A stretch of DNA of 50,772 nucleotides, taken from NCBI GenBank assembly GCA_029261965.1, contig JAJDAH010000098.1, positions 1 to 50,772 on the forward strand, given 5' to 3'. Shown here one piece after another: positions 1 through 35,165 of the stretch (position 1 is the first letter of the stretch; each line of letters opens with the position of its first letter). This DNA is from Polyangiaceae bacterium. GTDB lineage: Bacteria; Myxococcota_A; Polyangia; Polyangiales; Polyangiaceae. The notes below the pieces were generated by a model, which ran no database searches, was not told the origin of the DNA, and saw only the letters and a list, made by a program, of their open reading frames with translations. A program made the translations under genes and the position numbers.

Positions 1-1
1 G

Positions 2-214
2 GAGAAGGCCAAGCGACGGCGTTTCAGCGCAGCGAAGAAGCTGCAGTTCCTTCGGGAGTACGAAGCGACCCCGAAGGGGGAGCGAGGGGCGTACCTGCGC
101 CAGCACGGCCTCTACTCCTCCCACATCGACACGTGGCGCAAGCAGGTGGCGAGCGGCGAGCTGAACGCCCTCGAGCCGAAGAAAGCGCGGTCGGAAGCGC
201 AAACCGCAGCCTGA
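2..214 (+). pseudogene. IS3-type transposase OrfA, C-terminal remnant cut by the window edge
   Basis: An open frame enters from the left edge and stops at 212-214, giving about 70 residues. It is basic at the start (EKAKRRRFSAAKKLQFLREY) and then reads GAYLRQHGLYSSHIDTWRKQ. This is the helix-turn-helix pattern of the small OrfA protein that binds the ends of IS3-family elements. The start lies outside the window. No OrfB follows: the next bases after the stop do not encode an integrase core, so the element is broken or rearranged here. An OrfB tail of a compatible type lies at 6631-6946 on the same strand and could be its lost partner. Family assignment is from motif recognition only. Confidence 0.55.
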
Positions 215-304
215 CCCGGAGAACTCGGGACTCGTTTCGTAAGAACTCGCCGTAGCCCGTCCTGACAAGCCCGAGCGGGCGTGCTGAGGTCGCGTCGCGC
301 AGAG

Positions 305-806
305 ATGGCTCGGCGAACGCGAGAAATCACATCAGTCCGACGGGACGTCGAGCAGCTCGGCGACGGCCCACAACGGCGGTATTCGCCGGACTTGCGGCGG
401 AAGATCGAAGAACTGGCGCGGAACCTGCGCCATGACGGAGCAAGCTTTGCCGTGATCAGCGAGGAGACTCCGACAGTGGCTCGAAGCGCAGCCCGTCCTC
501 AAAAGCACGAGCATCGGCGAGGCCATCCGCTACACGCTCACCTACTGGTCCCGACTGACCCGCTTCCTCGACGACGCGCGGATCCCCCTCGACAACAACC
601 GCACCGAACGAGGGATCCGAGGTCCGGTTGTCGGGCGGAAGAACCACTACGGCTCAAAGTCTCGTCAGGGAACCGAGGTCGCGTCGATCCCGTACTCGCT
701 CGTCGAAACCGCCAAGTTCAACGGCGTCGATCCCGCGAAGTACCTGGCGGACGCTGCGCGTGCGGCAAAGCGCGGCGAAGTGCTCTTGCCGTTGGCGACC
801 AACTGA
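305..806 (+). pseudogene. IS66-family element remnant (accessory ORF start fused to transposase C-terminus, internally deleted)
   Basis: Two pieces sit in different frames. From 305 a short frame (MARRTREITSVRRDVEQLGD, then RRYSPDLRRKIEELARNLR) looks like the small DNA-binding ORF of an IS66-type element. From about 465 to the stop at 804-806 another frame reads RLTRFLDDARIPLDNNRTER, VVGRKNHYGSKSRQGTEVAS and NGVDPAKYLADAARAAKRGE. This is the conserved tail of IS66 transposases and contains the final acidic catalytic residue region (NNRTERGIR). The middle of the transposase, with the first two catalytic Asp residues, is absent. The element is dead. It is a different lineage from the IS66 element at 3189-5229. 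Confidence 0.7.
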
Positions 807-1246
807 CGCTCGTCGCTCACGAAACAGCCTCGGCCGCTGTCAAGACGGGGCGCGGCGAGCTGCTACGTAGAAACGGTAGCCTCACACGAAGGGCACTTCC
901 GTTCTGCAAGCTCCACGCGCGGTCTCCTGCCGGCTCCGAGAACTGGCCATCGGAATCCCGCCCGTGCGAAGTGCACGGCCCAGACTGCGGACGACCGGGC
1001 GGTCGTCCGCGACGGCTCGGAGGTGAAGGTCCGGGCCGTCTCCTTTTCTGAGGCAGCCCTACGCCGCTACGCTGACGCCCTCGGCTCGGACAAGAAATCC
1101 GGGTGCCGCCTAAACCGGCGGATCGACCCCACGCTGCGCGATCGAAACGCCCCGCTCTTGGAGGATCGTTTCCCCTGGAGCCGACAACTCGCAATGCATC
1201 GCCCCGTTGTCAGGGGAGCGCCGATTGATCTATCACCGCGTTGGCC
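807..1246. other. 440-bp stretch with no supported gene
   Basis: Between the IS66 remnant and the orphan membrane gene there are only short overlapping frames on both strands without a recognisable domain, a good ribosome binding site or a consistent coding pattern. It may hold the lost outer end of the IS66 remnant and the promoter of the downstream gene. I could not identify a clear terminal repeat or promoter in it. Confidence 0.4.
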
Positions 1247-3181
1247 ATGTTCCTTGAAGTACTCAGCGTCTGCCTCGCCTTGGCAGCAGCGCAGACAGTC
1301 CTCGCAGGACTCGGCTATTCGGTCGTCTATGCCGCGAGGTACTGGCCCGCGAACGAAGACTCTAGTTCGACCAGCATAAGTGAAGCTATCGCCCATTGTG
1401 CGCTCGTCCTAGCCTGCACAGCTGCCTGCGCGCCTCTGCTGCTGGTCTTGAAGACGATCGCCGACTCCCTCATGTGGGGTGTCGTCGCAGCTGGGGTAGT
1501 TGTCGGACACTGCCTACATGCGCGCCGCAACAGCCAGAAAGCCATAGGTCGAGTACTAGTCTACTTCTTCACGAGTTTTTTCGTGCTCGTCGCGACGCAC
1601 GGCTACTGGCACCAACCGGAAACTCTGCACGACGGAATCGCCGAAGTCCACAACGTGTACTGGGACTACTATCCTCATCTGCAACTCCAGCAGCATCTCG
1701 CTTTCCACCACGAGGGCGGACCAGTATTGGCTCCAGGGGGGTATCCAGCTGCACTTACAAAAAACTCCAACGTAGTGTCCACCTTTTCGTCTCTTCCCGT
1801 CGCGCTCGCGACGCTTGGCGATCCTCGCAACTGGACGTTTTCACTCGCGATGGCGGCCAGTACGTGGGGCGTGCAGTTGATGTTGCTGGCCGTGCTCGCC
1901 ATCCTTCGCGGCACACTGGGGCGCGCATGGTGTGTCGTTGGGGTCGCGATGCTGCTCGTGGGATATCTGGGTGAAATTACCGTTCCCACGCACTGGCTGT
2001 ACACTCACTTTGTTGGTGGCAACAGTGGAGTGTCCATCGCCTTGTTTCTGAGTGTTGTCTGGTTCTGTAGCCCGAGTCCATTTGCGTCGTCGGTGCCGGA
2101 GAAACGAGCCAGACTACTCTTGCTCGCGGCTCCGTGTTTGCTTTGGAGTCGATTGACGTGGGTGCCCTTCTACGGACCGTTTTTACTCTTTTTGTTTTTC
2201 ACCTTGATACGATCACAGGTGGCCATGGGGGATAAGGTCCGAGACGTTCTGCGCCGCGTCGTGCCCAACGTGGTGGTCGCAGCAGGTCTTGCGCTACTCG
2301 TTGTGACGAACAATGACATATTCGGACGCTCGCCAGGGAAGCTTGAACTCGAGACTACGCCGAGTCTAGATCACTACCTCCACTATCTATCGTGGTCGCC
2401 GCGCTACCGCGCCTTCGCAATCGAATTCGCGAGGGGCAACCTGCTGCGCGGAATGGCGTCCGAGGTATTCCTCAACGCTGCCACGGCACTTGCGATCGGA
2501 TATATTGGCCGCTCGAAGACCTTAGGCTGGATCGGCTTCGCAGCACTTTTTTTTCAGAGCGCTGCGATGTTTCTCGTCAAGCCGCTAGGCGAGGCGTTCA
2601 AGTACGGGAGCGGTGAGCCATTGGTCTCGTTTATGATGCTCAGAGAACGGCTTCTGCCCCTACTAGCTGTTCTCTTGCTTCCTTGGAACCGCTTTTCCCT
2701 CGGATGGTTGGAACGATTCTCGAGCAGACACGGGTGGACTCGGCATGCACTACTCACCCCGGGAGTGGTCGTCCTCTGTTCGCTCTCTTGGTTTGGGAGT
2801 GACTCGTTCAAGTACTCCCCAGCCTTCGTCGTTCAGTCTCAGGCGATCACGCAGCTGCGCGCCGCGTGTCACCGTGGAGAAGTTCGCGGAGTATACTGGA
2901 CGGGCCGAGTCCGAGGTCCGAGCGGGAGGTATGCGAAGGGACATCTGCAGCGCTCGTTGATGGCCGCGTACACCGGGTGTCTGAACGTTGGTGAGGAGCG
3001 CTACAGTCACAAGCTCTCGTCCACCGATGCGCGGCTGGAGTTTCAGAAGCTAGGAGATCAAGTCATTCGAGACTGCGGTAGGGAGAGCCGAGCTGGAGCA
3101 CGAATTGACAGTGCCAAACGGGCGTTGAGGGGTGCTCGAATCGCAGTTGCCAGACTGGATGGTCGATGCGCCTGGTGGTGA
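1247..3181 (+). CDS. Orphan polytopic membrane protein, unknown function
   Basis: About 644 residues from the ATG at 1247; a TTG two codons upstream is also in frame. Many hydrophobic segments alternate with short loops (for example VLACTAACAPLLLVL, GVVAAGVVVGH, MLLAVLAILRG, WIGFAALFFQSAAMFLV), giving roughly 10 or more predicted spans. A larger loop after the first spans is rich in His, Tyr and Trp (HGYWHQPETLHDG, VYWDYYPHLQ), as seen in some membrane glycosyltransferases and O-antigen-type proteins. I do not recognise the family. The C-terminal 130 residues are soluble and basic. Its base composition is visibly more AT-rich than the backbone genes (runs of T, mixed third positions), and it is flanked by broken IS elements on the left and an intact one on the right. 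Acquisition by transfer is therefore likely. A role in surface polysaccharide synthesis is only a guess. Confidence 0.7.
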   Translation: MFLEVLSVCLALAAAQTVLAGLGYSVVYAARYWPANEDSSSTSISEAIAHCALVLACTAACAPLLLVLKTIADSLMWGVVAAGVVVGHCLHARRNSQKAIGRVLVYFFTSFFVLVATHGYWHQPETLHDGIAEVHNVYWDYYPHLQLQQHLAFHHEGGPVLAPGGYPAALTKNSNVVSTFSSLPVALATLGDPRNWTFSLAMAASTWGVQLMLLAVLAILRGTLGRAWCVVGVAMLLVGYLGEITVPTHWLYTHFVGGNSGVSIALFLSVVWFCSPSPFASSVPEKRARLLLLAAPCLLWSRLTWVPFYGPFLLFLFFTLIRSQVAMGDKVRDVLRRVVPNVVVAAGLALLVVTNNDIFGRSPGKLELETTPSLDHYLHYLSWSPRYRAFAIEFARGNLLRGMASEVFLNAATALAIGYIGRSKTLGWIGFAALFFQSAAMFLVKPLGEAFKYGSGEPLVSFMMLRERLLPLLAVLLLPWNRFSLGWLERFSSRHGWTRHALLTPGVVVLCSLSWFGSDSFKYSPAFVVQSQAITQLRAACHRGEVRGVYWTGRVRGPSGRYAKGHLQRSLMAAYTGCLNVGEERYSHKLSSTDARLEFQKLGDQVIRDCGRESRAGARIDSAKRALRGARIAVARLDGRCAWW

Positions 3182-3243
3182 CAGAGACGTAACCGTTCAG
3201 CCCCCTGCTTGAGCAAGCGATCTCGGTGTGCGATCGGGACCGC

Positions 3244-3645
3244 ATGACGAACACCAACACGACCCAGGAACTGGCCGAGCGCATCGAACGCCTGGTCCAG
3301 GAACACATCTCGGAAACCCAGGTCGCTGCGCAGGCCGCTGTCGAGCGGGCCTTCGCTCCGACCGGCGGCGCGAAGCGGCACTCGACGCGTCAGCAGCGCT
3401 CGTCGCACCCGAAGCGACGTCGCGGACCGCAGGAGCTCGAGGCGATCGGCGAGCGCTTGTACGAGGCCGTCTGCGCGAAGCCGGGCGAGACGATGGCGGT
3501 GCTGGCGCCGATGGTCGGCGGAACGGCGCGTGAGCTGAATCGACCGATGATGCGGATGAAGCGCGCGGGACGTGTGCGGGTGGTGGGCACTCGCAGCTCT
3601 GCCCGGTATTTTCCGATGGCGAGCGGGGTCCAGGCGGCCGAGTAG
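3244..3645 (+). CDS. IS66-borne passenger protein, small basic DNA-binding-like protein
   Basis: 133 residues from the ATG at 3244; the frame is open a few codons further upstream. The N-terminal 40 residues form an acidic amphipathic helix (TQELAERIERLVQEHI). A basic Ser/Arg/Lys linker follows (TRQQRSSHPKRRRGPQ). The last 70 residues (GERLYEAVCAKPGETMAVLA, ELNRPMMRMKRAGRVRVVG) look like a winged-helix module with a recognition helix and a beta wing. The gene lies wholly inside the inverted repeats of the IS66 element and ends 8 bp before the transposase stop on the other strand. From memory, similar small proteins recur beside IS66 transposases in Sorangium-type genomes, but I could not search. 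A regulator or targeting factor for the element is possible. Confidence 0.65.
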   Translation: MTNTNTTQELAERIERLVQEHISETQVAAQAAVERAFAPTGGAKRHSTRQQRSSHPKRRRGPQELEAIGERLYEAVCAKPGETMAVLAPMVGGTARELNRPMMRMKRAGRVRVVGTRSSARYFPMASGVQAAE

Positions 3646-3653
3646 ACCGTCGC

Positions 3654-5156
3654 TCAAGCGGCGAAGAGCGAAGGTGTGGGACCATCGTCGCGCTGCGCCT
3701 CACAGCATCCGATGAGGAACTCGAACACGTTTCTCTTCTGCTTGCGTGCCGTGTGCGCGACGGTCATCAGGCGTTCGGCGAAGCGATTGCCGCGCTCACT
3801 CTGCGTGCCGAACGAACGCTTCCTCCACAAGACGAACGCGCGCAGCTCTCTTTCGCCGTGATTGTTGGTCGGGTCCACGCCGTCGTGGTCGACGAACATC
3901 CACAGCGCCTGCCTGTGCTCGAGGATGTAGGCGCACGAGCCCGACACGCCCTTGATGTCCGCAGCGGCTGCGCGAGCGAGCACGCCTTCGACCTGCTCCC
4001 GGACCGGAGCCATCCACGCGACGAACTGCGGGCGGCTCATCTTTTCCGCTTGGTAGTCGTGCCACCAATCGAACACGAGGGCGGAGTAGTCGAGTAGCTC
4101 TCGACCGATTCGAGCTTCGGGACCGTCGCGCTCGGAGAACGAAACGAACTTGCGGATGAGGTGGCTCCAGCAGATTCGGCGCCGGTCCATCGCCCAGAAG
4201 TTGAGCGCCTTGGCCCGATCGCTCACCAGGATCCCCTTCAGCGCACCGAAAAGTGGCTGGAGCGTCTTCTTGCTGCCGTCCGAAACGATCTTGAACGCGG
4301 TCGCCGCCTTCGTCGCGATCGTCCACAACGAGAGCAGGGCGCCGGCCTGAAGCCACGTCGTGCCGTCGGTGTGCTTCACGCCGTCCTTGCCGACCTGCTT
4401 CCACACCTCGGCGACCGGCGCCTGGACGGCCTCGCTGATGCGGCCCTCGACGGCGCTGAGTCCACCGAGGGATACCGTCACGCCGAGCACATCGGCGAGC
4501 AGGTCCTGCGTCTTGCGCCGGCTCAGATGGTAGATGCCCGTGAGCATCGCCATGATGGCCATCAATCGGGGCCCGAAGGGCGACGACGGGATTACCGACT
4601 CGTCGTAGGCGGCCCGGGTCCGGTGTCCGCATTTGCCGCAGGTGCAAGCGTGGCGCCGCCACTCCGTCGTGTACGGCTCGACGGGGGGCAGGTCCGTCTG
4701 CTGGTGGCGCATCGGTGACGAGTCCGGCGCCGGTGACAGCGGCTCGAAGCAGTGTTCGCACTCCGATGGATACAGATCGACGAACTTGTTGACCTTGTCC
4801 TCGGGCACGAGACCTCGATGAGCACCTTGGTGTCCGGGTTGGCCGCCGCGTTTGCGCTTCCCCTTGCCCTTCTTCCGCTCGTCCTTGCCCTTGCGCTTCT
4901 TCCGCTGACCCGGTGAGTCGCTGGACGGAGGCAGGTGCGAGTTGCGCGAGTTTTGACCGAGCCGCTCGGTCAGCTCCGCCACCAGCTGCTCGAGCTTCGC
5001 GATGCGCTCGTCCTGCTCGGCGACCCGAGCCTCGAGCCTCGCGACCTCGGCGATGCGCTCGTCCCCGCGCGGCGAGCTCCGCCTCGAGCTCGGCAATCCG
5101 CGCAGTCGCGCCAGTCCGTGGTCACGAGCTACGTGATCCACGAAAGAAATCGTCAT
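3654..5156 (-). CDS. IS66-family transposase
   Basis: 500 residues, the normal length for this family. Order of parts: an N-terminal leucine-zipper-like coiled coil (VARLEARVAEQDERIAKLEQ), a Lys/Arg-rich linker (GKDERKKGKGKRKRGGQPGH), a zinc-binding segment (CEHCFEPL, then CTCGKCGHRTR), and a DDE core. The core shows Asp in KHTDGTTW, Asp in ILVSDRAKALN and Glu in NNHGERELRAF, so it looks catalytically intact. It cuts and pastes the element by recognising the terminal repeats. The first 35 residues are doubtful: in the +1 frame near 5051-5105 the DNA reads RIAELEAELAAR, which continues the coiled coil better. A one-base indel near 5070 may therefore have shifted the original N-terminus. No separate tnpA or tnpB is present in the element. 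Confidence 0.85.
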   Translation of the reverse strand: MTISFVDHVARDHGLARLRGLPSSRRSSPRGDERIAEVARLEARVAEQDERIAKLEQLVAELTERLGQNSRNSHLPPSSDSPGQRKKRKGKDERKKGKGKRKRGGQPGHQGAHRGLVPEDKVNKFVDLYPSECEHCFEPLSPAPDSSPMRHQQTDLPPVEPYTTEWRRHACTCGKCGHRTRAAYDESVIPSSPFGPRLMAIMAMLTGIYHLSRRKTQDLLADVLGVTVSLGGLSAVEGRISEAVQAPVAEVWKQVGKDGVKHTDGTTWLQAGALLSLWTIATKAATAFKIVSDGSKKTLQPLFGALKGILVSDRAKALNFWAMDRRRICWSHLIRKFVSFSERDGPEARIGRELLDYSALVFDWWHDYQAEKMSRPQFVAWMAPVREQVEGVLARAAAADIKGVSGSCAYILEHRQALWMFVDHDGVDPTNNHGERELRAFVLWRKRSFGTQSERGNRFAERLMTVAHTARKQKRNVFEFLIGCCEAQRDDGPTPSLFAA

Positions 5157-5229
5157 GGAAAGGACGAAATTTCTTATGGAATGATCTCGATCACTTACGC
5201 GGCCGTCAGACCCCCGGGTGAACGGTTAC

Positions 5230-6630
5230 TGTGGATCGGTCTCGTGACAAAGGCGGTCTATCCTTCCGCGTGAAAAGCAACACGCAATCCCGTGGTTGGC
5301 GCCACGGGCGGAAGGCAGGCCACCCGATGCTGAGAATAGTCGAAGAAGGCCGATCCGGAAACGAAGAACGTACTGGGCTCGACGAGCTCGCGCGAGAAGG
5401 AGCAAGACGGATTGCTCGTCGCGGCCCTCGAAACGGAGGTGACGCAATACCTCGAGGCGCACCAGGAGCGCGACGAGCAAGGCCATGCGCAGGTCGTGCG
5501 AAACGGGAAAGCCAAGGCCCGGAAGGTGACGACCGGGGCCGGTACCTTCGAGGTCGAGGCGCCGCGAGTCAACGACAAGCGCACCGACGAGGAGGGCGAA
5601 CGTCAGAAATTCACGAGCAAGATTCTTCCGCCGTACATGCGCCGGTCTCCGAAGGTCGCCGAGGTGATTCCGATCCTGTATCTGCGCGGGCTCTCCACCG
5701 GCGACTTCCGCGAGGCGTTACCCGTACTGCTTGGCGAAGATGCAGCGGGACTCTCGCCGACGAACATCGCGCGGCTCACGGCGGTTCGGCAGAAGGAGTA
5801 CGACCAGTTCAATGCGCGCGACCTGAACGACCGGGACTACGTCTACATCTGGGCCGATGGCATCCACTTCAACATCCGGTTGGAGGAGGACAGGCTCTGT
5901 ACGCTGGTAATCATCGGCGTTCGGCCGGACGGGACGAAGGAGCTCATCGCCGTCGAGGACGGCTACCGCGAGAGCACCGAGAGCTGGCTCGGCGTGCTGC
6001 GCAGCCTCGAGCGCCGCGGCATGCAGGCGCCACTCATTGCGGTGGGCGACGGAGCGCTCGGTTTTTGGGGGGCGTTGCGCGAGGTCTACAGCTCGACGCG
6101 CGAACAAAGGTGCTGGTGCCACAAGCTCGGAAATGTCCTCGATGCTCTTCCGAAGCGCCTCCAAGGCAAAGCCAAGAAGGCCCTGCACCAGGCGATGTAC
6201 GCCGAGACGAAGGAGCACGCCGAGGAGGCGCTCGACCGCTTCGTCGCCGACTACGAGGCGAAGTACCCGAAGGCGACAGCGAAGATCGAGAAGGACCGGG
6301 ACGCCATGCTCACGTTCTTCGACTACCCCGCCGAACACTGGAAGCACTTGCGCACGACGAACATCATCGAGTCACCATTCGCCACGGTGCGGCTACGCAC
6401 GAAGGTGACCAAAGGTGCCGGCTCACGCATCAAGGGTCTGACCATGGCCTTCAAGCTGCTCGACATGTCGCAGGCTCGGTGGCGACGCTTGAACGGACAC
6501 GAGAAGCTCCCCCTCGTTCGTGGCGGAGTGAAGTTCGTCGATGGTGCTCAACTCGAAAGGAACAAGGATCTCGATGCGGAGGATGCCGCCTGATCATGCA
6601 TGGTCGATCCACAACATTTGACAATTTCTC
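5230..6630. mobile_element. IS256-family insertion sequence, left end possibly trimmed
   Basis: A nine-base inverted repeat, TGTGGATCG, is found at 5230-5238 and, inverted, at 6605-6613. On the right the IS256-like end continues as ACAACATTTGACAATTTCTC to about 6630. The matching outer part of the left repeat is missing because the IS66 element ends exactly at 5229. The simplest reading is that the IS66 element replaced or cut the outer left end of this IS256 element. The right end joins an IS3-type OrfB fragment, so this IS256 copy had itself inserted into, or next to, an older IS3 element. Confidence 0.5.
5412..6593 (+). CDS. IS256-family (mutator-type) transposase
   Basis: At least 393 residues from a TTG at 5412. 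The family pattern (LGSTSSREKEQDGLLVAALE) starts upstream at about 5352, but the frame has a stop at 5337-5339 and no ATG or GTG after it, so the natural start is unclear or lost. The catalytic triad is visible: Asp in YIWADGIHFNI, Asp in AVGDGALGFWGAL and Glu in TTNIIESPFATVR. The zinc or insertion-domain signature CWCHKLGNVLDALPK lies between the second Asp and the Glu. The core is complete to the C-terminus. The gene fills the IS256 element and is unrelated at close range to the decayed IS256 copy at 6958-7930. Activity depends on whether the shortened N-terminus and left end still work. Confidence 0.8.
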   Translation: MLVAALETEVTQYLEAHQERDEQGHAQVVRNGKAKARKVTTGAGTFEVEAPRVNDKRTDEEGERQKFTSKILPPYMRRSPKVAEVIPILYLRGLSTGDFREALPVLLGEDAAGLSPTNIARLTAVRQKEYDQFNARDLNDRDYVYIWADGIHFNIRLEEDRLCTLVIIGVRPDGTKELIAVEDGYRESTESWLGVLRSLERRGMQAPLIAVGDGALGFWGALREVYSSTREQRCWCHKLGNVLDALPKRLQGKAKKALHQAMYAETKEHAEEALDRFVADYEAKYPKATAKIEKDRDAMLTFFDYPAEHWKHLRTTNIIESPFATVRLRTKVTKGAGSRIKGLTMAFKLLDMSQARWRRLNGHEKLPLVRGGVKFVDGAQLERNKDLDAEDAA

Positions 6631-6946
6631 AGACTTCTTCCACTGGTACAACACCGAGCATCACCACAGCGGCCTGGGCTACCTCACGCCGCAGCAAGTG
6701 CATGAGGGCCGCGCCGAGCAAACTCTCGCCGCGCGCCAAGGCGTCCTGCTACGCGCCTACGAACAGCACCCTGAACGCTTTCCGAACGGACCACCACGCG
6801 TGGCGAGTCCGCCGACCGAGGTTTGGATCAACCCGCCACACCGTGAACGCGACGACCTCAACCCTCCTGCCTCCGGCGTGGTCGTGAAGTCGATCACCCG
6901 CGGCAACATCGAACCGGTTGCAGAGCAACGCTCCACTAATTCATGA
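6631..6946 (+). pseudogene. IS3-family transposase OrfB, C-terminal remnant
   Basis: The frame ending at 6946 reads DFFHWYNTEHHHSGLGYLTP, then QQVHEGRAEQTLAARQ and PTEVWINPP. This is the end of an IS3-type integrase core, after the last catalytic Glu region, and the usual tail of such proteins. The 5' two thirds of OrfB, with the Asp residues, is missing. The break coincides with the right end of the IS256 element. The strand and type agree with the OrfA fragment at the left window edge. Confidence 0.7.
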
Positions 6947-6957
6947 AAACGCGTGTC

Positions 6958-7930
6958 TCAAACTCGTTGACATTTTCCGCGCTTCTCGAGGTTTCGGATG
7001 GCGAGGAAGAGTAGCTTGACGGCGGCCTCGTCCGTGGGGAAGTGGCCGCGGTAGTAGACGAGCTTCGCAGCGTCGAGTTGAGCGACTCGATGGCGTTCGT
7101 CGTGTAGATGATCCTGCGGACCTCCGGCGGGAAGTCGAGGAACGGGGCGATACGCTCCCAATTTGCTCGCTATGAGCCAATCATCGGGTAGCGGGGTTTC
7201 CCACTTGTCTTCGAAGGCCTCGAGCGCGTTCTCTGCGTCGTCCACGACTGGCGGCAGTGTAGATGGGCTTGAGGTCACGGACCACCTCACGTCGGTCCTT
7301 GTAGCTCACGAAGCGCACGGAGTTGCGGATGGCGTGCACGATGCACGTCTGCACGACGGTGTTCGGGAACACCGTCTCGATGGCTTCGGGGAAGCCCTTG
7401 AGCCCGTCGCAGCAGGCGATGAGGATGTCCTCGACGCCTCGGGTCTTGAGACTCGTTGACGACTTTGAGCCAGAACTTCGCTCCCTCGGTTTTGCTCGAT
7501 CCAGATGCCGAGCACCTCCTTGCCGCCGTTCACGTTGACGCCGAGTGCGAGGTAGACCGACTTGTTGCGGACAACGCCTTGGTCGCGGATTTTGACCACG
7601 AGCGCATCAAGGTAAACGATGGGGTAGATCGAAGCGAGCGGCCTCCCCTGCCAGCGGGGGATGTCGTCGGCGAGGTGGCCGTGGATGTCGCGAACCGTCA
7701 TCCCGCGGGCGTACAGCGCGATAATGCGATCGTCGAAGCCGGCCAACCGACGCTCCCGCTTCTTGATGAGTTGCGGCTCGAAGCTGCCTTCTCGGTCGCG
7801 GGGGACGTCGATGGTGGCGTCTCCCTGGTCGGTAAGGACCGTCTTGCTCGTGTAGCCGTTGCGACCGTTGGCCTTGCCGTCTGGTTTCGCACGGCCGCTC
7901 TCGTAGCCGAGGTGCTCGGTGAGCTATCGC
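6958..7930 (-). pseudogene. Decayed IS256-family transposase
   Basis: Read on the minus strand, pieces of one mutator-type transposase lie in order but in different frames. First SGRAKPDGKANGRNGYTSKT and AGFDDRIIALYARGMTVRDI, directly joined to [20 protein letters not shown] and [15 protein letters not shown]. After a frameshift near 7450 comes [20 protein letters not shown]. After another near 7260 comes [16 protein letters not shown], and finally [12 protein letters not shown]. The start is gone, a segment between the GHL of the targeting region and RWQGRPL is deleted, and at least two frameshifts are present. The protein cannot be functional. It is a more distant IS256 lineage than the copy at 5412-6593 and looks much older. 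Confidence 0.75.
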
Positions 7931-8204
7931 GCCGGTCAACTGGGCAAAAACCTCCGAGCGCGACGACGTGCGCAAGACGCTCTTGCTCGACCCTACCGCG
8001 CCATCAGTCTCGGCATCGGGGGGAGCCAGCAGACCTAGCCCTGGACTTCCGGCGCTTACAGCACGGAGGCGTTGAACGGATACCGAGGAACGCGTCGGCG
8101 CTGATCGTCAAGCCGGCGTCAATTAGGATGAACGGAGAGCATCTAGCGGTCGGTCCCAAATCGCTCTTGCTCGACGAGCCGGGGCGCGGTATCCGGGGAG
8201 TCCC
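7931..8204. other. 274-bp spacer with no supported gene
   Basis: The stretch between the decayed IS256 gene and the epimerase has no frame with a recognisable product. It probably holds the missing outer end of the IS256 element and the promoter of the epimerase gene. I found no convincing -35/-10 pair. Confidence 0.35.
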
Positions 8205-9224
8205 ATGCCATTGCCACGAGTGCTGGTTACGGGCGCCTCCGGATGGCTTGGCCGGAGTCTAGTCCAGGCGATTTGTAGCGGTGTACGAAGCGGCCCTGTT
8301 GATCGCCCGCCGGAGCCGGTACGCGTGCTCGTCCTCCCCGGCGAGGACACCGAGCCGATCACGGGCCTCGGTGCTGTCGAGGTAGTGACTGCGGATCTGC
8401 GACAGTCGGGAGTTCCTGTTGAAGCGTGTCGGGGCATCGAGACGCTGTACCACTGCGCCGGGGTTATCCATCCTAGGCGGATCAGTGACCTGTACTCGGT
8501 AAACGTAGATGGCTCCCGAAACATCCTCGACGCTGCGATAGCCGCGAAAGTCCGACGATTCGTTTTCGTGAGTTCGAATTCCCCAGCCGGCGTCAACTCC
8601 AGTCCGACTCGCCTCATGGTGGAAGACGACCCTCCACAGCCCTACCTCAACTACGGGCTGAGCAAGTTGCAGGGCGAGTGGCTCATTCATAGCGCGCATC
8701 GCGCCGGTCGCATCGAAGGTGTCATCGTTCGCCCATGTTGGTTCTACGGCCCCAATCAGCCGCTGAGACAAACGACGTTCTTCAAAATGATCAAGGCCGG
8801 ACACCCTCCCGTGGTCGGCCGCGGCGACAATCTGCGTAGCATGAGCTACGTCGACAATACGGTGCAGGGGCTACTCCTCGCCGGAAGCCTTGAGCGAGCT
8901 GCTGGAGAGACCTACTGGATTGCCGACGCACGGCCGTATTCGTTTATCGAAATTTTGCAAACGGTCGCGCGTCTACTCGATGTCGAGCTGCGACCGCGAT
9001 ATCTGCCGAAACTGGCAGGCGATACCGCGCGCCTCGTCGATTCGCTTCTCCAAATGGCAGGGCTGTACAAGCAAGAGATCCATGTCGCAGGTGAGCTGGG
9101 TGAATCGATAGCCGTGTCGATCGACAAGGCGCGACGGGAACTTGGGTACGAGCCTCAGGTCGAGCTTGAGGAGGGCATGCGTCGTTCGATTCTTTGGTGT
9201 CGAGCCCACGGCGTCGAAATCTAA
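8205..9224 (+). CDS. NAD-dependent epimerase/dehydratase (extended SDR family)
   Basis: 339 residues. The nucleotide-binding motif is at the start (VLVTGASGWLGRSL, residues about 6-19), Asp in VVTADLRQSG follows the third strand, and YHCAGV matches the conserved adenine-side motif. The active site is present as Ser in FVFVSSNSPAG and Tyr-Lys in YLNYGLSKLQGEW (YxxxK). VIRPCWFYGPNQP is the usual substrate-loop motif. The family acts on nucleotide sugars or on sterol-like and dihydroflavonol-like substrates; the substrate here cannot be read from sequence. The gene is followed after 3 bp by a mini-EamA membrane protein, so the pair is probably one operon, perhaps for a modified sugar or lipid of the envelope. 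It sits among transposon remains and is likely acquired. Confidence 0.85.
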   Translation: MPLPRVLVTGASGWLGRSLVQAICSGVRSGPVDRPPEPVRVLVLPGEDTEPITGLGAVEVVTADLRQSGVPVEACRGIETLYHCAGVIHPRRISDLYSVNVDGSRNILDAAIAAKVRRFVFVSSNSPAGVNSSPTRLMVEDDPPQPYLNYGLSKLQGEWLIHSAHRAGRIEGVIVRPCWFYGPNQPLRQTTFFKMIKAGHPPVVGRGDNLRSMSYVDNTVQGLLLAGSLERAAGETYWIADARPYSFIEILQTVARLLDVELRPRYLPKLAGDTARLVDSLLQMAGLYKQEIHVAGELGESIAVSIDKARRELGYEPQVELEEGMRRSILWCRAHGVEI

Positions 9225-9227
9225 TCT

Positions 9228-9584
9228 GTGACTCGCGCCGCTCTTTTCTTCGCTATTCTCACGGTGTTGCTCAACGGCGGAGGCCAATTGTTGCTGCGAC
9301 AGGCGGCGTTGAGCGGAGCCGAACCCACGCGTCCGCTCACGCTCTTGGCGAGCGGATGGTTCCTCTCAGGCGTTGGTAGCTATGGTGTGAGTGTGCTCAC
9401 CTGGCTCCACGTGCTTAGAGATACTCCACTGAGTATCGCAACTCCTTTTATCGCTATCGTTTACGTCGCTGTCCCTCTGGTGAGTCGCCCATTGTTCGGC
9501 GACGTTATTTCTCTGCGGATGGCGCTCGGCATGTTCCTGGTAGTTGCCGGCGTGACCCTGGTTGGGAGTGAGACCTGGGAGTAG
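9228..9584 (+). CDS. Small EamA/SMR-like four-helix membrane protein
   Basis: 118 residues from a GTG at 9228, only 3 bp after the epimerase stop. Four hydrophobic spans are clear: AALFFAILTVLLNGGGQLLL, LLASGWFLSGVGSYGVSVL, IATPFIAIVYVAVPLVS and ALGMFLVVAGVTLVGS. The early GQLLLRQA and the late gain-of-helix pattern GMFLVVAGV fit the EamA/SMR fold, as in ArnE/ArnF-type flippase subunits and small multidrug exporters. Such single-EamA proteins work as dimers. With the epimerase in front, flipping of a lipid-linked sugar is an attractive but unproven role. Confidence 0.75.
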   Translation: MTRAALFFAILTVLLNGGGQLLLRQAALSGAEPTRPLTLLASGWFLSGVGSYGVSVLTWLHVLRDTPLSIATPFIAIVYVAVPLVSRPLFGDVISLRMALGMFLVVAGVTLVGSETWE

Positions 9585-9888
9585 TCGTCCAGCGCAAAGG
9601 CCACTCGGGATCGCCGCGTTCGGTGGGCTCGACGAGGCTCTCGAGCGTCGAGCCGATGCCGGGTCCGTCTCGATGGGCGGCTTGCGCCCGGCACCGGGCC
9701 GACGGATTCGCTGTTGCTGCGGCGGCTCGCTCGGCTTCGCGCCTCGATCTCGCGCAGGTCCTTTGATCCCAGACGCAATCCTCCTTCCTGCGGTTCCGCG
9801 ATCGCCGAGTTGCTCGAGGAGACTCCAGTGCATTGGGCGAGGAGGATCCCGGCGAAGTTCGCAGACGGCGATTCGCCTGCGCTGCGCC
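9585..9888. other. About 300-bp spacer without a supported gene
   Basis: Several overlapping short frames exist on both strands, but none shows a known domain, a ribosome binding site or a consistent coding bias. The right part leads into the promoter and leader of the recombinase unit. It may be a remnant of older mobile DNA. Confidence 0.35.
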
Positions 9889-9917
9889 TTGGCTCGCGCC
9901 AGGCTCTGAGGTATGCT
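9889..9917 (+). promoter_or_regulatory. Candidate sigma70-type promoter of the recombinase unit
   Basis: TTGGCT at 9889-9894, a 17-bp spacer, then TATGCT at 9912-9917. The transcript would start near 9924, run through the hairpin at 9936-9966 and reach the strong Shine-Dalgarno GGGAGGT (9984-9990) just before the GTG at 9997. Pattern match only. Confidence 0.4.
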
Positions 9918-9935
9918 CAGTCGCCAAAACGAAGT

Positions 9936-9966
9936 GCCCCCCGCGTGGCTGGAACCACCGAGGGGC
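9936..9966 (+). promoter_or_regulatory. Leader hairpin upstream of the recombinase unit
   Basis: GCCCC at 9936-9940 pairs with GGGGC at 9962-9966, and an inner GTGG/CCAC stem closes a CTGGAA loop, with one mismatch and one bulge between the two stems. There is no T tract, so it is not a classical terminator. Its place, 30 bp before the start codon and after a candidate promoter, suggests an RNA structure, an attenuator or a protein-binding site controlling the small protein and recombinase. Confidence 0.45.
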
Positions 9967-9996
9967 TTGGCCAGAACCTAAACGGGAGGTCCTGAC

Positions 9997-10281
9997 GTGA
10001 AGACGCGTAGCATCCATCGAATCGCCCTGGAATCCGCCGACGTAGACGTCGGCCGCACCTTCGAGGCCGCCGCCCGAGCCGGAACCGTGCTCGGGGACAT
10101 CGGCGCCGACACGCACGAGGCAGCCACTCGCGACGCCCGCCCCGACGACCTCGACCATCGGGCGACTCGGCTCCGAGGTTGCGTGCTGAGCGCCCTGACG
10201 ACCGCCGTCGACGACGCGGGCCGGCTCGAGCAGCTCGCCGAGATCTGCCTGGTCGCCACCGAGCTGGGGGCTGGCCGATGA
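9997..10281 (+). CDS. Small protein translationally coupled to the serine recombinase
   Basis: 94 residues from a GTG at 9997, preceded by a strong Shine-Dalgarno (GGGAGGT, 7 bp upstream). The sequence is acidic and Ala-rich with predicted helices (VGRTFEAAARAGTVLGDIG, CVLSALTTAVDDAGRLEQLA). It has no Cys pair, membrane span or known domain. Its TGA overlaps the recombinase ATG as ATGA at 10278-10281, so the two are almost certainly made together. Small genes beside large serine recombinases can be directionality factors or other partners, but nothing in this sequence proves that role. Confidence 0.7.
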   Translation: MKTRSIHRIALESADVDVGRTFEAAARAGTVLGDIGADTHEAATRDARPDDLDHRATRLRGCVLSALTTAVDDAGRLEQLAEICLVATELGAGR

Positions 10282-11897
10282 CGAAAGCACTCGCCTACGC
10301 CCGCGTCAGCACGACCGAGCAAGCCCAGGGCATGTCGATCGATTCACAGTTGGACCGCATCCGTGAATACTCCGCGCAACGCGGACTTAAACTCGTCGGC
10401 GAGTACGTCGACCGGGGCGCGACCGGGACCAGCGACGAGCGGCCCGAGTTTCGCCGCATGCTCGAAGTGTTGCTCGGCCCCTCGAACGAAATCGAGGCCG
10501 TGGTGGTCCTGCACACCTCCCGTTTCATGCGCGACGTCGAGTTGGCGCGACGATACAAGCGCGAGCTGCGGCGCCGAGGCGCCCGCGTCCTCGCCGTTCA
10601 ACAAGAGGTCTCGGACGACGCCAACGGCGAGCTCATGGAGGGGATCTACGAGCTGTTCGACCAGCACGAGTCTCGGATCATCGGGATGCGCGCTCGCGCC
10701 GGCATGAAGGAGAACGTCCGTCAGGGCTACTTCAACGGCAGTGTGGCGCCCTTTGGTTTCAAGGTCGTCAAAGTCGCGGGGCCGAACGGCAAGCGCCAGA
10801 AGTCGAAACTCGCGCCCGACGACGCGGAGTGCGAAGTCGTACGCCACATCTTCGACCGCTACCTCGCCGGTGCGGGCGTGAAGACGATGGCCCGCGAGCT
10901 GAACCAGCGGGGCACTGACTACCGGGGCAGGCGCTGGAATCGCGACCTCGTCCTTGGGGTGCTCGGCAACCCTGCGGTCGCCGGCACCTACGAGTGGGGT
11001 CGGAAGGACAGTGGCAAGAGCGAAGCGCCCGTGACCACGAAGGTCGTGGCGATCGTGAGCCCGGCCGCCTTCGAGCGGGCCCAGACACTCCGCGAGAAGC
11101 GCGACCCCGCGCGGAGCAAGGGCGGCGGCACGCACACGACCCAGCTCCTCGGCGGGGGCCTACTCCGCTGCGGCAAGTGCGGTGCCAGCTACCAGTTGGA
11201 AACGTCAGGTAAGTCCCCACACTACCGCTACTACAATTGCCGGGCGTTCTGCCGCGCCGGCCGCGAGGCGTGCTCGGGGTACCGAATCGCGACCAAGACC
11301 CTCGACGAGGCGGTTCTTCGCCACCTCGCCGACGAGCTGTTTACCGAGGACCGGTGCCGGGCGCTTCTCCGGGACCTGACGGGCTCCCAGAGCGAAATTC
11401 GGCGTGAGAAGGCAGAGCGCCGGAAGGCCCTGGAGGAGGAGCTGGCCGGCGTCGGGAGCGCCATCCAACGCTGGTGCGAGGCGTTCGAGTCGGGCACCGG
11501 GCTGGCCGACCTCGGCACCGATCGGCTTCGGACTCTTCGAGACCGTCAGGCCGAACTGACCCAGGCCCTCCAGGAAGCCCGGCCGCCGCCGGCACTGCCG
11601 CCCTACCTCTTCAAGCCAGCGGTCGTCGCGCGCTTCCAAGAGCGCCTACGAGCGGCCCTGCTGGGCGACGACCAGCAGCTCGCCCGCACCTATCTCTCAC
11701 GGTTGGTGGAGAGCATCGAAATCACCGATGGCGACGTTCTGGTTCGAGCTAAGGCCGCCGGTGTCGTCGAGCTCATGGCAGCGAAGGGCGCGAAAGATGC
11801 CGCGGGGCTGGTATCCCAAACCGGAAGGTCAAAAGTTCGTACACACGTCGTACATTGGCACGCCCGGCAGGATTCGAACCTGCGACCAGTGGTTTAG
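10278..11897 (+). CDS. Large serine recombinase (site-specific integrase)
   Basis: 539 residues. The resolvase-type catalytic domain (about residues 4-150) has the nucleophile Ser11 in YARVSTTEQ and conserved Arg residues in VVLHTSRFMRDVE. The recombinase DNA-binding domain follows (AGVKTMARELNQRG, GNPAVAGTYEWG). A zinc ribbon is clear: LLRCGKCGASYQ, then a second Cys cluster in NCRAFCRAGREACSGYR. A coiled coil follows (RREKAERRKALEEELAGVGS). It would integrate or excise the island. The last 14 codons (WHARQDSNLRPVV and the stop) lie inside the tRNA-Arg gene on the other strand, and TAG at 11895-11897 is the complement of bases in the anticodon loop. The native C-terminus has probably been replaced at the junction, or the gene is built to end in its own attachment site. 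Confidence 0.85.
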   Translation: MTKALAYARVSTTEQAQGMSIDSQLDRIREYSAQRGLKLVGEYVDRGATGTSDERPEFRRMLEVLLGPSNEIEAVVVLHTSRFMRDVELARRYKRELRRRGARVLAVQQEVSDDANGELMEGIYELFDQHESRIIGMRARAGMKENVRQGYFNGSVAPFGFKVVKVAGPNGKRQKSKLAPDDAECEVVRHIFDRYLAGAGVKTMARELNQRGTDYRGRRWNRDLVLGVLGNPAVAGTYEWGRKDSGKSEAPVTTKVVAIVSPAAFERAQTLREKRDPARSKGGGTHTTQLLGGGLLRCGKCGASYQLETSGKSPHYRYYNCRAFCRAGREACSGYRIATKTLDEAVLRHLADELFTEDRCRALLRDLTGSQSEIRREKAERRKALEEELAGVGSAIQRWCEAFESGTGLADLGTDRLRTLRDRQAELTQALQEARPPPALPPYLFKPAVVARFQERLRAALLGDDQQLARTYLSRLVESIEITDGDVLVRAKAAGVVELMAAKGAKDAAGLVSQTGRSKVRTHVVHWHARQDSNLRPVV

Positions 11898-11932
11898 AAA
11901 TCCACGGCTCTATCCAGCTGAGCTACGGGCGC
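11856..11932 (-). tRNA. tRNA-Arg (anticodon TCT)
   Basis: 77 bases on the minus strand fold as a full cloverleaf: acceptor GCGCCCG with CGGGCGT, D arm GCTC...GAGC, anticodon loop TTTCTAA (TCT, Arg), T arm GCAGG-TTCGAAT-CCTGC, discriminator G and an encoded CCA. The base pair next to the anticodon loop is A-A, a mismatch. The 3' half overlaps the end of the serine recombinase frame on the opposite strand, which marks it as the probable attachment site for the island to the left. Confidence 0.95.
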
Positions 11933-12989: not shown

Positions 12990-13799
12990 TCAGCTTGCGC
13001 CGGCGCGGGCTCGGGCGCGGTCGAGTGGGTCGAAGCTGTGGCCTTCTTTGACTTGCTCGCTCGTCTTGCCGAAGCGCCGCTCGCGCGACGCGTAGTCTTC
13101 GAGCGCGCTCAGGAAGTACTTCTTGTCGAAGTCCGGCCACATGAACGGCACGAACATCAGCTCGGCGTAGGCGGCTTCGTACAAGAGGAAGTCGCTCACG
13201 CGGCTTTCGCCGCCGGTGCGGATCAGCAAGTCCACGTCGGGCACCTCGCGGGTGCTCATCTCGCGGTGGAAGAACTCCTCGTCGATCTCTTCCGGCAAGA
13301 CGAGGCCGGCGCGGGCCCGAACGGCCAACGCGCGCGCCGCGTCCACGATGTCGCGGCGGCCGCCGTAGGACAGCGCCAGGGTGAGCGTCATCTTGTCGCA
13401 GTCGGCGGTGTACGCCACGGAGTCTTCGACCGCGCGTCGGGCGAAGGTCGGCAGGTCTTCGAGCTCACCCACGACTTTGACGCGAACGCCGTTCTCGCGG
13501 AGCTCCGCCTTCTCTTTCACGGCGAACTCGACCAGCAGCTCCATCAGTCGGTCGATTTCGGGCCGCGGCCTCGCCCAGTTGGCGATGCTGAACGCGTACA
13601 GCGTCAGGTACTCGATGCCCTGCTCGCGGGCGGTGCGCACCGATGCACGCACGGCGCGGGCGCCCTCGGCGTGGCCCTCGGAGCGGTCCAGACCGCGGGC
13701 CTCTGCCCAGCGACCGTTGCCGTCCATGATGATCGCGACGTGCCGCGGCACGTGGCTGAGCTTGCGTTCGCCGTTTCCGTTCCCGTTCGAGCTGGTCAA
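12990..13799 (-). CDS. uppS: Undecaprenyl (isoprenyl) diphosphate synthase
   Basis: 269 residues from a TTG at 13799; the frame stays open to a GTG at 13952, but the extra 51 residues look non-conserved. Homology starts with VPRHVAIIMDGNGRWAEARG, the first conserved cis-prenyltransferase motif with the catalytic Asp. FSIANWARPRPEIDRLM and DLLIRTGGESRVSDFLLYEA match the later conserved regions, and FVPFMWPDFD lies near the end. The enzyme makes the C55 carrier for peptidoglycan and surface polysaccharides. Its 3' end converges with the phosphodiesterase gene. The usual partner genes (frr, cdsA, dxr) are not beside it. The start codon is the main uncertainty. Confidence 0.88.
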   Translation of the reverse strand: MTSSNGNGNGERKLSHVPRHVAIIMDGNGRWAEARGLDRSEGHAEGARAVRASVRTAREQGIEYLTLYAFSIANWARPRPEIDRLMELLVEFAVKEKAELRENGVRVKVVGELEDLPTFARRAVEDSVAYTADCDKMTLTLALSYGGRRDIVDAARALAVRARAGLVLPEEIDEEFFHREMSTREVPDVDLLIRTGGESRVSDFLLYEAAYAELMFVPFMWPDFDKKYFLSALEDYASRERRFGKTSEQVKEGHSFDPLDRARARAGAS

Positions 13800-14068
13800 T
13801 GTCGTCCCTGTCTTTGTGGCCCCGCGGACCGCTTCGCTTGTCCCTGCAGAAGGGTGGCAGAGCCTCTCAAGTATTGTGGGGACCGATTGTGGAGGTTCCG
13901 AGGAAAAAAACCGCTTTCGGGGCGAGCTTCTGGTCTGACTGTCTGAGTTCACTGCCCCTCAAACCCGCTGGGATATCAGGGGTTTAGGTCCACTTCTTGG
14001 CACCCCCAGCGTGACAGTCCTGTGCCACTTCTTCGGTCTTTCTGGCCTCTTCTCCTTGCGGCAGGAGC

Positions 14069-33960: not shown

Positions 33961-35165
33961 TGGGCAAGCGCCGCGAAAAAGAAACGACCCGCCGGCAGTT
34001 CCTCCGGCTCGGCGACGGTAAGAAGAAAGACGTCGTCGTCGTCGTTTTTCTCCGCGGCGCGGCGGATGGCCTGAACCTCGTCGTCCCGCACGCCGAGCCC
34101 AGGTACTACGAGCTTCGGCCCACGCTCGCGGTTCCGCGGCCCGACGACACGAGCGCGGACGACAGCGAGCGAGGTATCGCGCTCGACGACCGATTCAGCT
34201 TTCATCCGTTGCTCTCGCCGCTGCTTCCTTCGTTTCGTGCCGGGGAGCTCGCTGTCGTGCACGCCGTCGGTTCGGACGATCAGACTCGCTCTCACTTCGA
34301 GGCGCAGGATCGCATGGAGCACGCCGGACGCACCGAGGGATCCGAGAGCAGCGGATGGCTCGCACGCTACCTGCGCCAGAGCGGAAGAAAGTCCGGGCTG
34401 TCGTCCGCGGCGATCGGCACCCAGTTGCCCGAGTCGCTCCGCGGTGCGCCGGCGGTGTCCGTTCTTCAGACCCTCGACGACTACCGCTTGGGAAAGGAGC
34501 GAGATCCAGAGCTCGAACGCGCCCTGCGTGCGCTCTATGCCCCCGCGCCCGCCCCCGGGGACGCGCTCGCGCCCGGGGACGCGCTCGCGTCCGCCGGTGT
34601 CGACGCTCTCGGAACTCTCGCGCGGCTCGAGGCCCTCGGCGTCGCGGGCGAGGGCCACCGGGCGGCGTATCGTGACGACAACTTCGCCCGAGGTCTTCGG
34701 GAAGTCGCCCGACTGATTCACGCCGACGTCGGGTTGGAAGCGGCGTCGGTGGATCTCGGCGATTGGGATACGCACTTCGTGCAGGCGAATCTTTTTCCGA
34801 GCAACGTATCCACCCTCGCGCACGGGCTCGCCGCTTTCCGCGAAGATTTGGGCGACACGATGCAACGGGTCACCGTCGTGGTGATGACCGAATTCGGGCG
34901 GCGGGCCTACGAGAACAGCTCGCTCGGCACCGACCACGGCCGCGCCGGCGTGATGTTTCTGATGGGCGGCGCCGTGCACGGTGGCCGGGTAATCACCGAC
35001 TGGCCGGGGCTCGCGGAGGACCAGCTCGAACAACCGGGGGATCTCGCGGTGACCATCGACTATCGCGACGTGCTGGCCGAGCTCGTCGAACGGCGCCTCG
35101 GGGCGGATTCGAGCACGATCTTCCCCGGTCACGAGGCCACGGACCGGGGCGTCTTTCGGAAGTAG
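33960..35165 (+). CDS. DUF1501 family protein
   Basis: 401 residues from the ATG at 33960 that overlaps the DUF1800 stop. The N-terminus has TTRRQFLRLG, a Tat-like twin Arg without a clear hydrophobic core, and then goes straight into VVVVFLRGAADGLNLVVPHA, the DUF1501 start. AVHAVGSDDQTRSHFEAQDR, DLGDWDTHFVQANLF, VVMTEFGRRAYENSSLGTDH and GRAGVMFLMGGAVHGGRV fit an alkaline-phosphatase/sulfatase-like metal site (Asp, His, Thr-Glu-Phe-Gly-Arg). A hydrolase fold is implied, but no substrate is known. An 18-bp tandem duplication (34554-34589) adds one PGDALA unit in a loop. Confidence 0.9.
   Translation: MGKRREKETTRRQFLRLGDGKKKDVVVVVFLRGAADGLNLVVPHAEPRYYELRPTLAVPRPDDTSADDSERGIALDDRFSFHPLLSPLLPSFRAGELAVVHAVGSDDQTRSHFEAQDRMEHAGRTEGSESSGWLARYLRQSGRKSGLSSAAIGTQLPESLRGAPAVSVLQTLDDYRLGKERDPELERALRALYAPAPAPGDALAPGDALASAGVDALGTLARLEALGVAGEGHRAAYRDDNFARGLREVARLIHADVGLEAASVDLGDWDTHFVQANLFPSNVSTLAHGLAAFREDLGDTMQRVTVVVMTEFGRRAYENSSLGTDHGRAGVMFLMGGAVHGGRVITDWPGLAEDQLEQPGDLAVTIDYRDVLAELVERRLGADSSTIFPGHEATDRGVFRK
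34554..34589 (+). repeat. 18-bp tandem duplication inside the DUF1501 gene
   Basis: Two identical copies of CCCGGGGACGCGCTCGCG, in frame, encode PGDALA twice in an Ala/Pro loop. Perfect identity means it is recent. Confidence 0.9.

Follow-up and report, generated by a model that had tools for sequence, protein, structure and literature searches.

A serine recombinase gene ending inside an antisense tRNA-Arg gene in a Polyangiaceae bacterium, and evidence from relatives for C-terminal tail exchange upon integration

The recombinase gene and its overlap with tRNA-Arg(TCT)

The stretch of DNA analysed here, referred to as the window, is 50,772 nucleotides long and comprises one whole contig (C478) of a fragmented Polyangiaceae genome in 480 contigs. 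On its forward strand lies a gene for a large serine recombinase, or integrase, of 539 amino acids (10278..11897), called from an ATG at 10278 to a TAG at 11895-11897 and interpreted as an integrated (attL) form. Pfam matches comprise a Resolvase catalytic domain (residues 5-150; 10290..10727), a Recombinase domain (residues 183-275; 10824..11102), and a zinc beta-ribbon domain (Zn_ribbon_recom, residues 294-350; 11157..11327), all on the forward strand. An AlphaFold2 model built on 12 sequences (mean pLDDT 73, pTM 0.35) has the catalytic, zinc, and coiled-coil parts as expected, with the coiled coil formed by long helices (residues 357-405 and 414-433) C-terminal to the zinc beta-ribbon. With Resolvase, Recombinase, zinc-ribbon, and coiled-coil parts all present, the protein is a large serine recombinase by domain content, and its predicted activity is catalysis of attP x attB integration. 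Folded domains end near residue 492 and residues 494-539 have a pLDDT below 50; the element half of the att site is encoded in a low-confidence linker, predicted to be disordered, at residues 494-526 (11757..11855, forward strand). Since this region lies past the folded enzyme, attP is probably located in a flexible linker, such that integration would trim the tail and leave the enzyme whole.

A tRNA-Arg(TCT) gene, detected by ARAGORN on the reverse strand (11856..11932), is the putative integration target (attB) and is intact after integration. An earlier note on this DNA had described the recombinase frame as running 14 codons into this antisense tRNA, and our analysis agrees: the tRNA-derived 3' end of the gene (11856..11897, forward strand) consists of 13 sense codons (WHARQDSNLRPVV) and the TAG stop. 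The stop had also been placed opposite the anticodon loop, and it is indeed the complement of tRNA nucleotides 37, 36, and 35, that is, of A37 and two anticodon bases. The att core, TGGCACGCC (11856..11864, forward strand), is common to the element and the tRNA 3' end, and its TGG, the complement of CCA, is the codon of Trp527. Directly before it lies the P half-site (11831..11855, forward strand), made up of the left arm AAAAGTTCGTAC and an inner sequence, in which 24 nucleotides are identical in a paralog on contig C258 of the same genome (68% protein identity). The core copies the native G1:U72 wobble of tRNA-Arg(TCT), which fits a tuning of the element to this tRNA. The possibility that the element itself made the G1:U72 pair was rejected, as the pair is native in relatives without the element.

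A 94-amino acid ORF (9997..10281, forward strand) overlaps the recombinase start (ATGA) and is a possible coupled accessory gene; no homolog of it was detected among the relatives tested, including the C258 paralog locus. The DNA upstream of the recombinase (9924..10018, forward strand) shows 88% identity to the corresponding DNA ahead of the C258 paralog, and is probably a regulatory region. Further left (window 1-9900) lie an IS66-type transposase (3654-5156, reverse strand), an rve fragment, an NAD-dependent epimerase, and an EamA fragment. The contig begins in an IS-like repeat that is common to contigs C479, C384, C125, and C91, and because it runs into this repeat before reaching the left end of the element, that end is unassembled. 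A search for a second copy of the tRNA end inside the window gave none, and when an empty syntenic site was sought via the GDPD gene, the best matches had no tRNA nearby.

One reading phase and symmetric att sites in relatives

The earlier note had suggested asking whether homologous recombinases also end inside a tRNA. They do so in one and the same phase: TGG is the first tRNA codon, read as Trp, in 14 of 14 tRNA-integrated loci with the window included, although these are not independent events, as some came from searches that favour similar C-termini and a number of them are closely related. The loci lie in Myxococcota (including five other Polyangia loci), Sinorhizobium, and phage contigs, and cover at least five tRNA genes for three amino acids (Arg, Asn, and Ser). 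For example, the targets in other genomes are tRNA-Arg(CCT) for the homolog in G219, tRNA-Asn for those in G224 and G211, and tRNA-Arg(TCG) and tRNA-Arg(CCG) for those in G274. The Sinorhizobium meliloti homolog uses tRNA-Arg(CCG), a gut phage scaffold uses tRNA-Asn, and homologs on IMG/VR contigs use tRNA-Ser and tRNA-Asn. From the sequences compared, the overlap of recombinase and tRNA is not due to chance. A resident invertase-like recombinase gene that merely overlaps a tRNA, with no integration involved, would be compatible with the failure to find an attR for the window copy, whose contig ends in an IS repeat. However, the single phase at several tRNAs, the att symmetry, and the defined elements in relatives described below make this very improbable.

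Among the integrated loci, the stop codon lies 4 to 43 codons past the TGG. Some loci have it in the T-arm and others in the anticodon loop, and with tRNA-Ser it is reached only at the far end of the tRNA or past it. The anticodon-loop stop in the window is therefore incidental, being the first in-frame stop that the tRNA offers. At six loci (L119, L120, L121, L124, L130, and L149), the recombinases end in a tRNA 3' fragment that stops short at the anticodon loop, which would fit later entry of a second island into that tRNA.

A full and an empty site can be compared directly in S. meliloti. On pSymB of strain ml21 (CP140937), a recombinase of approximately 30% identity ends in tRNA-Arg(CCG), while strain ml66 (CP140944) has the empty site. 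Alignment of the two delimits an element of approximately 38.6 kb (CP140937 413.8-452.4 kb; L042 and L045), with the tRNA restored at one end, that carries a relaxase, a coupling protein, and type I restriction and AbiE-like genes. The shared core has 18 bp, TGGCGC(A/G)CCCGA(C/G)AGGAT, and from its mismatches the crossover maps to the sixth base or to its left. Joining the element ends yields an attP with perfect 14-bp inverted arms (14/14), and the recombinase has 546 amino acids in the integrated form (...KWRTRQDSNL) and 557, with a different tail, in the circular form (...KWRAREDETGHSYVIVAPIHF). The 38.6-kb element is missing from most other pSymB records among the matches listed.

Similar geometry was found elsewhere. 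The core lengths are very short (6 to 18 bp), and the attP symmetry centre coincides with the fifth base of TGGCN, corresponding to tRNA nucleotide 72, in S. meliloti, G219, G211, and the joined window/C465 site; in the phage family discussed below it lies one base further. Arm scores are 12-14 of 14 with none of 200 shuffles as good, except in G211 (9/14; 136 of 200 shuffles, and thus not significant alone) and L135 (11/14; 1 of 200). Joining the P half of the window to the P' half on contig C465 gives an attP that is symmetric at 13 of 14 positions (0 of 200 shuffles). A short core together with symmetric attP arms is therefore found in S. meliloti, in the C173 copy of G219, in the phage integrases L132, L138, and L139, and in the combined window and C465 halves, and weakly in G211. 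None of the attL sites tested for symmetry was significant, and neither were the arms of L128, L129, and L143, tested as attP forms of the tRNA-Ser/Arg families. These data also bear on the idea that a tyrosine-integrase island created the tRNA junction and that the serine recombinase is only its cargo. tRNA 3' ends are typical sites of tyrosine integrases, and the tRNA fragments at L119-L121, L124, and L130 are cut at the anticodon loop, as by a second island. Yet the arms are of the symmetric serine type and are centred on the junction, the cores are only 6 to 18 bp, and the crossover near nucleotide 72 is away from the anticodon loop, so that we regard this origin as very improbable.

Tails at the far ends of the elements

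The other half of the att site was traced within the window's own genome. The sequence ahead of the core, AAAAGTTCGTACACACGTCGTACA, recurs without change in the C258 paralog, and around it 13 of 14 identical residues share their codon versus 52% in the rest of the gene (P ~0.001). The corresponding inverted arm, GTACGAACTTTT, occurs at C465:13838 and C258:34886, each time directly after ACGCC, and past this arm the recombinase frame encodes a tail of approximately 110 amino acids; both contigs run on into C393 via a 72-bp overlap. At C258:10898, a third, diverged copy marks the left end of a 23,856-bp element that is bounded on the right by the C258 recombinase, with the tail in the recombinase frame. 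C465 is a candidate neighbour. As the left end of the window's element is unassembled, we infer the long tail of this element from the C465 and C258 half-sites, and the tail swap in it is likewise presumed.

Altogether, the tail was found at eight loci, with residue conservation starting soon after the att core. Six of the eight tails alone match the Pfam ParB helix-turn-helix (HTH) domain (best E 1.1e-5), and a tail profile weakly matches ParB and Spo0J structures. Between C258 and C465/C393, dN/dS is 0.20 in the fusion frame versus 1.4-1.7 in shifted frames, and the tail is therefore under selection as a protein, read in the frame used in the circle. In G211, where the recombinase ends in tRNA-Asn, a repeat search with the attL core gave no attR; the site was located via the HTH tail, which lies on the same strand at a distance of 25,305 bp and is in frame from TGG CTC. 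This element measures 25,305 bp. In G219, one copy is split (C9, in tRNA-Arg CCT) and another is unsplit (C173). Their DNA is alike through TTGGCGCCCC, after which C9 enters the tRNA and C173 continues into the other arm and the HTH tail. C173 is the only unsplit copy in Polyangia; its attP arms are intact, and it is a remnant because the N-terminal part of the enzyme is missing. As the tail lies in the recombinase frame at the other end of the element (C258, G211) or in an unsplit copy (G219), attP lies inside the recombinase gene.

The ends of elements often carry HTH proteins, and the tail could be an independent left-end gene that is in frame by accident; the GTG codons in the C258 tail might indeed start a shorter protein. 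This is improbable given that conservation begins soon after the att core, that the tail is in frame in C258, C465, G211, and G219, with C173 a continuous fusion, and that the G211 tail has no possible start earlier than codon 50, inside the HTH region.

On C258 (L073 and L052), both left-end half-sites (10845-10900 and 34815-34872) are preceded by the same sequence of approximately 50 bp (GGCGTGGCACCGG...GCGAAGCGAAGCGAAGC), and the elements seem to be in tandem at a repeated or decayed target. On C465 (L051, ~13660-13815), the P' half-site has immediately to its left two degenerate antisense tRNA-Arg-like units in tandem. In each, a hairpin replaces half of the anticodon arm, and they may be debris of repeated integrations.

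A phage family was found in both states. The integrases of IMG/VR contigs L131, L136, and L137, which are 93% identical to L132 over the integrase, end in tRNA-Asn sequence at 523 amino acids, whereas those of L132, L138, and L139 continue across an attP, with arms of 11 bp, and reach 540 amino acids. The unsplit members of this tRNA-Asn family, L132, L138, L139, and L135, end in LVKAA, LRKAA, LRIAA, and LRLAA, respectively, and the prophage forms lose the -AA end. These ends resemble ssrA-type degradation signals, which have been described for mycobacteriophage repressors and integrases (PMC8092301), although we draw no more than a resemblance. The HTH tail is not found everywhere: a search in phages and plasmids gave no match, and the long forms of S. 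meliloti and the phages carry tails that are short and unrelated. There may, therefore, be no single tail function.

Proposed mechanism and relation to known systems

We consider it likely that the window gene codes for the integrase of a mobile element that has entered tRNA-Arg(TCT) at its 3' (CCA) end, that attP lies within the integrase gene itself, in a flexible linker past the conserved serine-integrase domains, and that the C-terminal tail is exchanged upon integration. In the excised circle, the gene would read across attP into the other end of the element, giving in this family a long form with a ParB-type HTH tail of approximately 110 amino acids. The integrase gene would then be cut when attP recombines with the tRNA end, the exchange being centred within 1-2 nucleotides of tRNA nucleotide 72. 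The integrated enzyme would keep all catalytic domains and exchange its tail for a few antisense-tRNA residues, up to the first in-frame stop, and the tail would be left at the far element end without a 5' part until excision restores the long form. The form of the protein would thus depend on integration state.

In relatives, the split gene, attP arms, att sites, and tail exchange are shown by sequence comparison, with the gene continuing through attP into the other element end in S. meliloti, C258, G211, G219, and the phage family. The earlier note's proposal that each integration re-makes the C-terminus is thereby upheld in these relatives, and the window's element presumably behaves likewise. 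The note had further expected excised and integrated forms to carry different tails; the forms do differ, but the excised one probably carries an HTH domain of approximately 110 amino acids and not simply a short alternative tail. As evidence against the proposal, the note had named close homologs in which a conserved C-terminus extends past this point in the absence of a tRNA. Such unsplit copies do exist, yet they support the model because they represent this gene in its attP state and have kept their attP arms.

The likeliest role of the exchange is altered activity, stability, or DNA binding of the integrating versus the resident enzyme, and it may thus regulate the enzyme. Alternatively, attP may sit at the 3' end of the gene for compactness, with a tail that has no role and any tRNA stop sufficing. 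This neutral reading overlaps with our explanation of the anatomy, since it concerns only the function of the exchange. It is in keeping with integrated tails that vary from 4 to 43 codons, with long-form tails that vary among families (HTH, short, or -AA ends), and with every conserved domain preceding the tail. Against it are the purifying selection on an HTH tail present at eight loci and the -AA ending of four distinct phage long-form tails, and we consider it rather unlikely, if a serious contender. It is tempting to speculate more broadly, and only tentatively, that there is a widespread class of bacterial serine integrases with attP in the linker, in which tRNA insertion detaches a C-terminal regulatory module (HTH in Polyangia, an ssrA-like -AA end in one phage family), so that the form of the protein would itself sense integration state and set direction or lifetime.

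Individual parts of this arrangement are not unprecedented. In Myxococcus phage Mx8, attP lies inside int, and integration gives int a new 3' end and alters specificity (PMC6070905), much as proposed here. That Mx8 Int might itself be a serine enzyme was rejected by its match to tyrosine-integrase families (Phage_int_M, E 2.7e-6). The suicidal integrases of archaeal SSV-type elements likewise have attP in int, mostly tRNA targets, a gene split between the element ends, and a translated att site, and such self-disrupting recombinases have been called exclusive to archaea (PMC8371274). Both differ from the window enzyme in being tyrosine rather than serine recombinases, and whereas the SSV split separates the catalytic domain, here all domains lie upstream of attP and the catalytic part stays intact. 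In mycobacteriophage integration-dependent immunity, attP also lies in a coding gene and integration removes a C-terminal -AA degradation tag (PMC8092301), but there it is the repressor gene that is cut, and the integrases belong to the tyrosine class.

Serine recombinases at tRNA genes have been reported as well. phiRSM uses one at the 3' end of tRNA-Ser, in reverse orientation, with a core (TGGCGGAGAGGGT) that, as here, begins with the CCA complement (PMC3816273). Its enzyme, however, is reported as resolvase/invertase-like (small), and its attP lies between ORF14 and ORF15, with no tail exchange described (PMC3816273). The serine recombinases of mycobacterial AICEs integrate at tRNA-Leu, a use of tRNA genes that was called rare for serine enzymes; unlike in the window's family, the passages of that report considered here describe neither attP within the gene nor tail exchange (PMC3218068). 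According to the Islander report, no serine recombinases using tRNA genes were known (PMC4383910). We found no report in the open-licence literature that combines tail exchange through attP in int with a serine recombinase at a tRNA, and the combination of serine integrase, tRNA target, and tail exchange looks new. Among the relatives, the arrangement occurs in bacteria and phages that are not related to one another.

Genome insertion is a common application of serine integrases, and the control of their direction is a central question. An integration event that itself edits the enzyme would touch on this question, and the pairs of long and short genes make the role of the tail directly testable. 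For annotation, recombinases ending in ...DSNLRP... should be viewed as attL forms and not as the full-length enzyme.
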